This document shows positions 17,360 through 22,137 of a stretch of DNA of 38,992 nucleotides, piece after piece. Every line of letters starts with the position of its first letter. Within the stretch, counting starts at the first letter, position 1. The position numbers were made by a program, and so were the translations under genes. Where the stretch lies: the IMG/VR virus record IMGVR_UViG_3300027906_000052, positions 1 through 38,992 of that record; one strand, given 5' to 3'. The notes under the pieces are model-generated. The model was not told where the DNA came from, made no database searches, and worked only from the letters and a program-made list of their open reading frames with translations. Origin of the DNA: a virus.

Positions 17360-17770
17360 ATGTACGAGTATAAATGTAAATTAGTAAAAGTAGTTGATGG
17401 AGATACAGTTGATGTAGATATCGACTTAGGTTTTGGAGTTTGGATGCGAAATCAACGTATCCGAATGTATGGTATAGATACACCAGAATCCAGAACATCT
17501 GACCCTATCGAAAAAGTATATGGGAAAGCTGCATCAGCATTTTTAACAAAATGGACAAATTCTGGTGACCTTACTTTAAAAACTTTTAAAGATGGTAAAG
17601 GAAAATATGGACGTATTCTTGGAGAAATTTGGTATGGTGGTGAACACAATGTCAATCAACTCCTAGTAGAGAATCATCACGCAGTACGTTATCATGGTCA
17701 ATCTAAAGATGATATTGCTTATGAACATCTTGCAAATAGAACTAAATTAAACTTGACAACTGAAGAGTAA
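17360..17770 (+). CDS. thermonuclease (staphylococcal nuclease family)
   Basis: The 136-residue product shows the SNase fold: VVDGDTVDVDIDLGFGV, RIRMYGIDTPESRT (catalytic Arg and Asp region), GKAASAFL, KGKYGRILGEI (second catalytic Arg) and NVNQLLVENHHAV. It lacks a signal peptide, so it would act in the cytoplasm, presumably on host or phage DNA or RNA. It directly follows the exported-protein gene and its last codons contain the -35 box of the tmRNA promoter. Confidence 0.9.
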   Translation: MYEYKCKLVKVVDGDTVDVDIDLGFGVWMRNQRIRMYGIDTPESRTSDPIEKVYGKAASAFLTKWTNSGDLTLKTFKDGKGKYGRILGEIWYGGEHNVNQLLVENHHAVRYHGQSKDDIAYEHLANRTKLNLTTEE

Positions 17771-17783
17771 TATGGTATAAATA
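17753..17783 (+). promoter_or_regulatory. dual early/late promoter of the tmRNA
   Basis: TTGACA (17753-17758), 17-bp spacer, TATAAA (17776-17781), and the same box extends to TATAAATA (17776-17783). One site can thus be read by host sigma70 RNA polymerase early and by the phage late sigma system later. Transcription would start near 17788. Confidence 0.82.
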
Positions 17784-17787
17784 ATAC

Positions 17788-18262
17788 ATAGTTTGATGAT
17801 ACGAATCGAATAATGTTAGGACGAGGGTGCGATACCCTCCACCTCCACCATAACTAAACCTCGATTGAGGGGGTGAAATAGGTTCGACTGACTTTGCTAG
17901 AGGAGAGTAGAACTATCGGATGACTGCGTTATTGGTCAAAAAAACTAAGTGCAAACGATAATTTTGCGCCTGTAGATTACGCTCTCGCAGCCTAATCGTA
18001 CTGAGTTCGGTGGGTACTTGGAAACAGAAACCCACCACAGTTTTAGAGTTTTCGGTGACGGCCGAAATCGCATTGTGCAAGGAAGAATATCTCACCAAGA
18101 GATATGAACTTGACTAGTTAGAGGTGGTACTCAGGCATGGTTGCAGAAATGCGTTGTGTCACATCAATCTACCGATTGGAACTAGGTTCTGGGAATTAGC
18201 AAGAATGGTATCTTGGTTTCTCAGTTGTAGGTGTACCCAAGTCCTACCAATGCATTATTAAT
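17788..18262 (+). ncRNA. ssrA: circularly permuted (two-piece) tmRNA
   Basis: tmRNA frees stalled ribosomes and tags the product for proteolysis. The acceptor part comes first: T-stem GAGGG (17823-17827), loop TGCGATA, CCCTC (17835-17839), then CACCTCC, A and CCA ending at 17850. After 18 bases, GGGGGTG (17869-17875) pairs with CACCTCC in seven pairs whose third is G-U, the alanine identity signal. GGTTCGACTG is the conserved D-arm analogue. The tag frame from GCA 17951 reads ANDNFAPVDYALAA, stop at 17993-17995. Possible P2 helix: TTTGCTAG (17893-17900) with TTAGCAAG (18196-18203), and AGAACTATCGG (17909-17919) with 18172-18190. The 5' leader (17809-17821) can pair with the 3' trailer (18242-18259). 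Permuted tmRNA is typical of Alphaproteobacteria. Piece ends are estimates. Confidence 0.9.
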
Positions 18263-18275
18263 TATGGAGTGATGA

Positions 18276-18500
18276 ATGGAAAATTTATTTGTGTTAGTGA
18301 TATCTATGTGGGGAATGACCGCTGAAGGTAAATGGACTTATATAGGAAATCAAGATGTATTGAAACAAGAGTTTACACTAGCACAGTGTGAACAACTTTC
18401 TGATAAAAGTATGTGGAGTAAAAATCACTCTAATGAATATTATGACATTCAAGTTGATTGTTTTCCAGTAGATTGTCAAGGAAAAGATAAGTGTGAATGA
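18276..18500 (+). CDS. small exported two-cysteine protein
   Basis: The 74-residue product has a hydrophobic N-terminus (MENLFVLVISMWGMTAEGKW), a Cys in TLAQCEQL and further Cys in QVDCFPVDC and DKCE. It belongs to the same short family as 563, 36554, 38459 and 38680. It begins after GGAGTGATGA, 14 bases past the tmRNA region, and overlaps the next gene by four bases. Function unknown. Confidence 0.7.
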   Translation: MENLFVLVISMWGMTAEGKWTYIGNQDVLKQEFTLAQCEQLSDKSMWSKNHSNEYYDIQVDCFPVDCQGKDKCE

Positions 18501-19190: not shown

Positions 19191-19424
19191 ATGGAAGAAG
19201 TTGAAGAAAAACTAATGACACCAAAAAAGTTTTCTATTGCAATAGAGAAAACTGTCAGTGAAGGTGGTGGAACTTATATGGACGCATTATTAGATTATTG
19301 TGAAAAGTATCAGTTAGAACCAGAGATGATTAAACCCTTAATAACTAAATCTTTAAAAGAGAAGGTTGAGGTAGATGCAAGAAACCTTAACTATCTTCCA
19401 AAGGTTGCAACATTACCAATATGA
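19191..19424 (+). CDS. 33: late transcription coactivator gp33
   Basis: T4 gp33 bridges the sliding clamp and RNA polymerase with sigma gp55 at TATAAATA promoters. The 77-residue product aligns with the C-terminal two-thirds of T4 gp33: FSIAIEKTVSEGGGTYMDAL against FIIEKMVEEFGMSYLEATTA, then YCEKYQLEPEMIKPLITKSL and EVDARNLNYLP. The order gp33, gp59, gp32 follows T4. ATG 19191 follows GTGAGG; the longer frame from 19137 is rejected. The many TATAAATA boxes in the window are its expected targets. Confidence 0.83.
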   Translation: MEEVEEKLMTPKKFSIAIEKTVSEGGGTYMDALLDYCEKYQLEPEMIKPLITKSLKEKVEVDARNLNYLPKVATLPI

Positions 19425-20433: not shown

Positions 20434-21067
20434 CCATATGGGTTCTGACCTAACAGTAGTAAACGCAGCTCGTGTCTCATTTGCAAAGAATTCAGAATGG
20501 GAAGCAATTCCAGAAGGTGGTGAAATAGAAGGATTGCTCTCAGCTGGAGATGAGAAACTTATCAAGTTTCTTGCAAAACACAATCATTGGAGTCCATTTG
20601 GACATTGTTCTATACAGTTCCATATTAAAGCTCCAATCTTTGTTGCAAGACAACTTGTAAAACACCAAGTCGGTTTGGTGTGGAATGAAGTATCCAGAAG
20701 GTATGTAGATGACGAACCAGAATTCTATACACCCAAAGAATGGAGACTTAAAGCCGATGATAAGAAACAAGGTTCTAGTGATGAAACTATTGAATATAAT
20801 ATTGACGGTGCGATACAGTTTGTAACACAGACTTATAAGAACTTGTTACGAGAACAAGTTGCACCAGAGATGGCAAGAATGGTTTTACCACAGAATTTAT
20901 ACACTGAATGGTATTGGTCTGGTACACTGATGGCTTTCGCAAGAGTATGTAATTTGCGTTGTGCAAAAGATACTCAATGGGAAACTCAACAGATTGCAAA
21001 TCAGATTGATGAAATTGGTAGTAAACTTTTTTCATATTCTTGGAAAGAATTACGAGAAAAGACTTGA
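20396..21067 (+). CDS. thyX: FAD-dependent thymidylate synthase
   Basis: ThyX makes dTMP from dUMP using methylene-tetrahydrofolate and FAD. The product has VNAARVSFAKNS, LIKFLAKHNHWSPFGHCSIQ, FVARQLVKHQVGLVWNEVSR with RY (the ThyX R..K/HR...NE.SRRY motif), EQVAPEMARMVLPQNLYTEW and FARVCNLRC. ATG 20396 has AAGGTG ahead. TTG 20414 has an even better AGGAGAG and gives the typical start MQVKLIDHMGSDL, so it may be the true start. With NrdJ it builds the dTTP supply for this AT-rich genome. Confidence 0.92.
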   Translation: MLGEKKLQVKLIDHMGSDLTVVNAARVSFAKNSEWEAIPEGGEIEGLLSAGDEKLIKFLAKHNHWSPFGHCSIQFHIKAPIFVARQLVKHQVGLVWNEVSRRYVDDEPEFYTPKEWRLKADDKKQGSSDETIEYNIDGAIQFVTQTYKNLLREQVAPEMARMVLPQNLYTEWYWSGTLMAFARVCNLRCAKDTQWETQQIANQIDEIGSKLFSYSWKELREKT

Positions 21068-21094
21068 CTTTCAAGTTATTATAGTGTATAAATA
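21064..21094 (+). promoter_or_regulatory. dual early/late promoter of gp32
   Basis: TTGACT (21064-21069), 17-bp spacer, TATAAA (21087-21092), extending to TATAAATA (21087-21094). This is the same overlay of early and late boxes as at the tmRNA, allowing gp32 to be made throughout infection. Confidence 0.8.
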
Positions 21095-21172: not shown

Positions 21173-22054
21173 ATGTCAGTTAGTACTCTACGCAAGTCCA
21201 ATACGTTGGACAAACTTCTTGCACAAGTTCAACAAGAAAGTGCCCCCCAAGAAAAGAAATCCTATGTGGATGAAAGGTTGTGGAAACCAGAACTAGATAA
21301 ATCTGGTACTGGACAAGCAGTCCTACGTTTCTTGCCTGCACCAGATGGTGAAGAACTTCCTTGGGTAAAAGTGTTCAAACACGCCTTCCAAGGCCCTACT
21401 GGTAAATGGTATATTGAGAATTCATTAACCACTATCGGTAAACAAGACCCAATGAGTGAACACAATACTCAATTGTGGAATACTGGTCTTGAAAGTGATA
21501 AAGAACTTGCAAGAAAGCAAAAGAGAAAGTTGGAATACTACTCAAACATCTATGTGGTATCCGACCCAAAACACCCAGAAAATGAAGGGAAAGTGTTTCT
21601 ATTTCGTTATGGTAAGAAAATCTTTGATAAGATTATGGCTTCAATGCAACCAGAATTTGAAGATGAAACACCTATTAACCCATTTGATTTCTGGGAAGGT
21701 GCGAACTTCAAGTTGAAGATTCGCAAGGTTGATGGTTTCTGGAATTATGATAAGTCTGAGTTTGATAGTGTAACTCCACTCGCAGACAGTGACGAGAAAC
21801 TTGACGGTATTTGGAAGACGCAGTATTCACTGCAAGACTTCCTTGCACCTACCAACTTCAAATCATATGATGAGTTGAAGAAAAGGTTAGATGATGTTCT
21901 CTCTGGAACTGTCACTGCAAGTGCAGCCTCTATGATTGACGAAGATGTTGTGGAAACACCACAGTTCAAATCTGAACCTCAACCTAACATTCCAAGTGTT
22001 GATGAAGGTGATGACGATACAATGTCATACTTTCAGAAACTTGCGAATGAGTAG
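21173..22054 (+). CDS. 32: single-stranded DNA-binding protein gp32
   Basis: gp32 coats ssDNA in replication, recombination and repair. The 293-residue product follows T4 gp32: a basic N-terminus (STLRKSNTLDKLLAQVQQ) for cooperativity, RFLPAPDGEELPWVKVFKHA, YYSNIYVVSDPKHPENEGKV with FLFRYGKKIFDKI, FDFWEGANFKLKIRKVDGFW and NYDKSEFD, and an acidic C-terminus (DEGDDDTMSYFQKLANE). The zinc-binding Cys of T4 gp32 are absent: the SCPVC region reads PMSEHN. The leader is long and A-rich, and a terminator follows. Confidence 0.93.
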   Translation: MSVSTLRKSNTLDKLLAQVQQESAPQEKKSYVDERLWKPELDKSGTGQAVLRFLPAPDGEELPWVKVFKHAFQGPTGKWYIENSLTTIGKQDPMSEHNTQLWNTGLESDKELARKQKRKLEYYSNIYVVSDPKHPENEGKVFLFRYGKKIFDKIMASMQPEFEDETPINPFDFWEGANFKLKIRKVDGFWNYDKSEFDSVTPLADSDEKLDGIWKTQYSLQDFLAPTNFKSYDELKKRLDDVLSGTVTASAASMIDEDVVETPQFKSEPQPNIPSVDEGDDDTMSYFQKLANE

Positions 22055-22101
22055 GGTGACTCCTCAATAAGTCCGTCCAAACCCACGGTAAGGTTAGGGG
22101 G

Positions 22102-22137
22102 AAAGGGAGTAGATTAATTTCTGCTCCCTTTTTTTTA
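22102..22137 (+). terminator. intrinsic terminator after gp32
   Basis: AAAGGGAGTAG (22102-22112), loop ATTAATTT, CTGCTCCCTTT (22121-22131) with one G-U pair, then T-rich. It ends the replication module. Confidence 0.9.

Follow-up and report, generated by a model that had tools for sequence, protein, structure and literature searches.

Permuted tmRNAs encoded by phages have been published for Methylophilales phage Melnitz (accession no. MZ577095) and for Pelagibacter phage Mosig (accession no. MT647606), so the kind of gene studied here is already known. The report that describes the Melnitz tmRNA (PMC9004378) gives a total of 53 two-piece tmRNAs in phages, with marine or aquatic samples as the source of 50. 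In both phages, as at the locus described here, a permuted alphaproteobacterial-type tmRNA lies near gp33 and thyX in a marine T4-like phage. The alphaproteobacterial tmRNAs themselves (RF01849; Caulobacter, Candidatus Pelagibacter ubique) share with this locus the gene order, the G3-U70 acceptor, P2, the terminal hairpin and an ANDN...ALAA-type tag, whereas the phage gene has a coding piece reduced in length (with large deletions relative to the model), a phage-type promoter and a place in a clade apart from the sampled sequences. The DNA analysed, termed the window, is a 38,992-base virus record with T4-like genes, whose gp32 is 66.6% identical to that of Melnitz and about 58% identical to those of HTVC008M and cyanophages.

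The segment from 17788 to about 18039 is a real circularly permuted, alphaproteobacterial-type tmRNA encoded by the phage. In a check against permuted-tmRNA models set beforehand, RF04321 (tmRNA_permuted) matched at 17788-17995 (125.7 bits, E 2e-24, cut-off 47) and RF01849 (alpha_tmRNA) at 17749-18039 (108.6 bits, E 6e-29, cut-off 50), both above cut-off. ARAGORN also called a permuted tmRNA in the window, with the tag ANDNFAPVDYALAA, the same tag as read in the original prediction. The features of the locus are as follows.

17753..17758, + strand: -35 hexamer TTGACA, with a 17-nt spacer to TATAAATA (sequence)
17773..17783, + strand: extended -10 TGG plus T4-late box TATAAATA (17776-17783)
17788..17850, + strand: acceptor piece (RF04321, RF01849, covariation)
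17788-17794 and 17815-17819, + strand: P2 5' strands in the acceptor piece (models, covariation)
17823-17839, + strand: T-arm (RF04321, RF01849, covariation)
17840-17846, + strand: acceptor 3' strand, then A73 and CCA (17848-17850)
17851..17868, + strand: intervening segment of 18 nt, between CCA and the acceptor 5' strand
17869..18039, + strand: coding piece (RF01849, covariation), 3' end uncertain by several bases
17869-17875, + strand: acceptor 5' strand GGGGGTG
17888-17892 and 17910-17916, + strand: P2 3' strands in the coding piece
17951..17995, + strand: tag reading frame ANDNFAPVDYALAA with stop TAA (ARAGORN, sequence)
18009-18015/18030-18036, + strand: terminal hairpin of the coding piece
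18050..18257, + strand: manA RNA, a separate cis-regulatory RNA (RF01745, 73.7 bits, cut-off 55.2, full length)
18276..18500, + strand: 74-aa ORF directly after manA, no family found; its position is shared with a 118-aa protein of most tandem relatives
19191..19424, + strand: gp33 late-transcription coactivator, third gene after manA (PF16805, E 8e-21; phrog_254, E 7e-21)

The T-arm and CACCTCCACCA (17840-17850) stand upstream of the intervening segment, GGGGGTG, the D-analogue GGTTCGAC (17881-17888) and the tag, which is the permuted order originally proposed; the alanine G3-U70 pair of the acceptor stem and the D-analogue, both part of that proposal, are likewise present in the window sequence. 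The tag frame called by ARAGORN has a hydrophobic ...AA end, and the tag is of the proteolysis type. Removal of 17851-17868 from the precursor is expected by analogy with known permuted tmRNAs. Within the precursor, CCTC-GATT-GAGG (17859-17872) could fold into a hairpin that covers the 5' terminus of the coding piece and competes with the acceptor stem. Phages whose tags differ widely repeatedly show a comparable ACCTCGATTTA segment, and unusually long tags were predicted in three other loci, with 31 residues in L034 and L112 (AKATVNNGEFNFVDFGALNKFAATEDFALAA) and 22 in L105 (ANKKALGFADLTVSTSELRLAA).

Because the single-sequence fold of the window precursor gave no useful information (z -2.4; the MFE structure lacked the T-arm), the helix evidence was taken from covariation among 65 divergent phage representatives. 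The acceptor, T-arm and P2 helices covary in these related phages. The acceptor stem (7 bp) and the T-stem were paired in 65/65 representatives, and acceptor pairs 5:68 and 6:67 showed compensatory changes through all four Watson-Crick types; the acceptor pairing to which the original prediction had tied its reading is thus conserved, while the G-U pair has no independent comparative support because G3 and U70 were fixed in the search patterns that gathered most relatives. In P2, formed by 17788-17794 with 17910-17916, 78% of cells showed pairing, and each position had several pair types; shuffles averaged 52% and reached at most 57%, and slid registers gave 34-49%.

These helices do not fit the anatomy first proposed, in which one tmRNA extended over 475 nt (17788-18262) with a 335-base coding piece, both strands of P2 inside that piece, and the break beside the T-arm. 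In favour of such a reading, the manA stretch is structured and no gap is visible by eye between it and the tmRNA, but the reading is already refuted and has practically no chance of being right: the manA stretch fits its own family, RF01745, over the full length, relatives L008 and L121 carry the tmRNA without that stretch, and P2 covaries with the acceptor piece, which it joins to the coding piece (78% paired versus 57% or less in shuffles). The tmRNA ends near 18039, and since the manA RNA (18050-18257) takes up most of the 213 bases at the 3' end of the interval, the coding piece has about 171 bases and ends in the terminal hairpin (18009-18036).

A composite promoter that combines predicted sigma-70 and T4-late elements ends at the 5' end of the tmRNA, and is new as far as we found. 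Compared with the sigma-70 consensus, it reads TTGACA-17-TATAAA with TGG ahead, the hexamer lacks the final T, and a simple sigma-70 scan omits the site. In the window, TATAAATA stands 75 nt before the CCA end, and the register is 74-80 nt in most loci; the gap between TATAAATA and the P2 strand is 2-6 nt in most loci, so that a start at the usual distance would fall on the first bases of the tmRNA. After removal of near-duplicates at 75% identity, 67 promoters remained, part of them from a scan requiring ATAAATA, which selects neither -35 nor TG. TTGACA (at least 5/6) at exactly 17 nt was found at 59/67 phage tmRNA TATAAATA sites versus 32/373 other TATAAATA sites, and TG before the -10 at 48/67 versus 38/373 other sites in the fetched contigs; many of the tmRNA loci are mutually related, and the Fisher test (p ~1e-50) refers to an earlier, less reduced set. 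In a promoter-blind set, exact TATAAATA occurred in the same register at 16 of 37 distinct loci. The TTGACA-17-TATAAATA promoter of Melnitz is as in the window, whereas Mosig is without the composite promoter. TATAAATA is enriched in the window (12 versus 4.7 expected). A second composite promoter, TTGACT-17-TATAAATA, lies at 21064-21094 before gp32 (at 21173), and the remaining window sites are mostly without a -35.

From this conserved sequence we infer promoter use, and the arrangement suggests early and late modes at one site. Early expression had been inferred for the published phage tmRNA from an early promoter (PMC9004378), and late promoters could not be predicted in the pelagimyophage survey (PMC7029224). 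The expression late in infection that was originally proposed is plausible in view of the exact T4-late -10 box, but exclusively late expression is not supported, since the same promoter has a consensus sigma-70 -35 and an extended -10.

The manA RNA starts 10 nt past the end of the tmRNA model, matches RF01745 over model positions 1-192, and lies in the likely 5' UTR of the following gene, with its end at 18257, GGAG at 18266-18269 and ATG at 18276. To our knowledge, manA has no known ligand. In the literature, manA RNAs have been reported upstream of mannose/fructose, nucleotide, ibpA and photosynthesis genes (PMC2864571); the window copy is likewise a full-length match above the curated cut-off in a 5' UTR, here of a phage gene, but it differs from these contexts in lying directly after a tmRNA and before genes without known function.

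The tmRNA-manA tandem, 10-13 nt apart, was found in about 20 contigs. The spacing was determined from covariance-model limits in the window, L179, L240, L244, L252, L260, L261, L268, L155 and L315, and the same tandem class was assigned from a fixed distance of 123-129 nt between the tag end and the manA core in L028, L044, L249, L251, L256, L257, L258 and L267, among which manA was above cut-off in L028, L044, L251 and L256. In L155 (repeated by L233) and L315, the manA RNA in this place differs greatly in sequence. The tag of the window also occurs in L315, and in L121, there without any manA; relatives without manA have the slot empty. In Melnitz and L357, a glutamine riboswitch directly follows the tmRNA; RF01739 gave no covariance-model match in the window. 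The order in L365 (3125-3815) is tmRNA-tRNA-manA. A tRNA gene directly follows the permuted tmRNA in L365:3125-3815 and in L309:2157-2585. The gene after the slot also varies, being the 74-aa ORF in the window, L044 and L256 and the 118-aa protein in most others, so that the slot, and not the gene, is common to the loci. The tandem is a minority arrangement (2/44 IMG/VR records in sets gathered without reference to manA); a gapped tmRNA-manA junction pattern was too loose and gave mostly chance matches. A limited literature search, in which absence is not proof, found no description of a tmRNA beside manA, and the tandem, with slot contents that vary among manA, a glutamine riboswitch, a tRNA and nothing in close relatives, appears to be new as far as could be found.

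In Melnitz, as in the window, a regulatory RNA thus stands directly after the tmRNA, with the glutamine riboswitch in place of manA, while Mosig carries manA 3.3 kb further on, before rubrerythrin. The Melnitz riboswitch was placed inside the ssrA 3' domain in PMC9004378; covariance-model limits (L002: tmRNA end 5172, riboswitch start 5180) suggest that it lies outside the tmRNA, by 8 nt. Away from tmRNAs, phage manA was also seen directly before rubrerythrin genes (L001, L243, L259, L265) and directly before redoxin (peroxiredoxin-like) genes (L246, L247, L248, L253, L262, L269), neighbours that hint at an oxidative-stress or redox link of the manA signal.

A candidate new structured RNA of about 50 nt was observed elsewhere in the window (22052-22103), in L002:5342-5393, and in L155, L244, L261, L279, L281, L287, L307, L317, L348 and L360. 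It would form two hairpins, GGGU-N4-CC..AAUA-N4'-CG and then a stem closing UCAYGGUUAA, with 88.8% of cells paired and a covariation score of 0.727 versus 0.278 in shuffles; helix 1 was required when most rows were chosen, yet it was paired in 10/10 rows chosen on helix 2 only. No Rfam family matches the candidate. Of the 23 loci that have an ORF, 15 carry it ahead of gp33, and it was also seen by eye before Hsp20 (ibpA-like) and IscU-like genes; the window copy (model match, 36.7 bits) is at the gp32 end, before a terminator-like hairpin.

The IMG/VR pattern scan, with no promoter in the pattern, returned at least 119 stretches, and ARAGORN called a permuted tmRNA in about 50 stretches among these matches listed. 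The RF04321 cut-off was exceeded by all 46 IMG/VR and isolate records tested. On the same strand, gp33 follows the tmRNA in 70 of the 95 phage loci with enough downstream DNA, mostly within 2 kb, and is, as far as we found, a new syntenic partner of phage tmRNAs. A search for SmpB in 12 phage records, including the complete Mosig and Melnitz genomes, gave no match. The proposal that the phage supplies its own ribosome rescue is thus only partly borne out, as the phage would depend on the SmpB, AlaRS and proteases of the host.

A DNA search of 385 genomes from the class to which Caulobacter belongs returned 46 matches, many of these from genomes sized 0.9-1.5 Mb. The tree comprised 113 tmRNAs and 245 columns, with unsettled bootstrap values and few hosts; in it, the window tmRNA was nested in a 24-row phage-only clade (support 96/90), and 13 alphaproteobacterial sequences from the DNA search formed their own clade (97/88). 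Capture from the host had been proposed; this nesting does not support a recent one, and an old alphaproteobacterial origin is plausible. As thyX flanks ssrA in P. ubique (PMC2704228), recent joint capture of both genes from SAR11 was considered and rejected, because phage ThyX is just 32-35% identical to the ThyX beside eight alphaproteobacterial tmRNAs. A pattern search of genome contigs for the exact window tag found none, a looser tag pattern returned mostly Caulobacterales and two viral-looking MAG contigs, and a DNA search against plasmids gave no match. Alpha-type permuted tmRNAs were also seen on Bacteroidota-binned contigs, L390 (Muricauda sp. TMED12 MAG) and L408 (Bacteroidota MAG); L390 falls among phage tmRNAs in the tree and is probably a phage contig in the bin. 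That the locus is a host DNA fragment or an assembly chimera on a viral contig is scarcely credible: the cellular matches are indeed alphaproteobacterial, many from the small genomes mentioned above, but the tmRNA lies inside the supported phage-only clade and is syntenic with gp33, and such tmRNAs occur in complete isolate phage genomes.

Taken together, the phage, a marine T4-like one of the Melnitz/pelagimyophage type, very probably encodes a two-piece tmRNA that looks functional. The start of transcription would lie a few nt downstream of TATAAATA, where P2 begins, which would leave the acceptor piece with a 5' end that hardly has to be trimmed, if at all. Host tRNA enzymes would cut out the 18-nt intervening segment, with the acceptor stem and P2 keeping the two pieces together. 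Aided by the SmpB and AlaRS of the host, the RNA would act on ribosomes stuck on broken mRNA in infected cells, releasing and tagging them. Through the composite promoter, early RNA may come from the host sigma-70 polymerase and late RNA from the phage-modified (gp55/gp33) polymerase. As a separate RNA in the 5' UTR of the next gene, manA most likely controls the extent to which transcription from the tmRNA promoter leads to expression of the downstream genes (the small ORF, a 2OG oxygenase and gp33).

Two other uses of the RNA were weighed against ribosome rescue. Tagging of host proteins for degradation and amino-acid recycling, mainly early in infection, was put forward as an alternative in PMC9004378. 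The consensus sigma-70 -35 with its extended -10 and the retained ALAA end of the tag agree with it, but the exact T4-late box and the gp33 synteny indicate late use as well. In addition, tmRNA acts on stalled ribosomes and not on selected proteins, and we regard host-protein tagging in place of phage ribosome rescue as improbable. Still less probable, to the point of being remote, is a decoy that occupies host SmpB and blocks host trans-translation. A phage RNA without a phage SmpB must compete for the host protein, and a block of this type has been reported for the tag-less form of phage DS6A (PMC4131195, PMC11915505); the DS6A form, however, is without a reading frame, while here even divergent phages retain the tag, its stop and every helix. 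Ribosome rescue by a two-piece tmRNA is the preferred reading.

Novelty lies in the composite promoter, in the RNA slot with exchangeable content (manA in the window), and in the corrected anatomy, which is now settled for a type of phage tmRNA often met in marine virus collections. The conserved promoter indicates selection for expression in both early and late infection. It is a tentative and rather unlikely extension that the slot 3' of this clade's tmRNA (two manA types, glutamine riboswitch, tRNA or none) and the composite promoter together yield one transcript that serves as rescue RNA and as a gated leader toward gp33; if true, it would link translation stress with late gene control. 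The locus thereby offers a testable link between ribosome rescue, the manA regulatory RNA and late transcription control.
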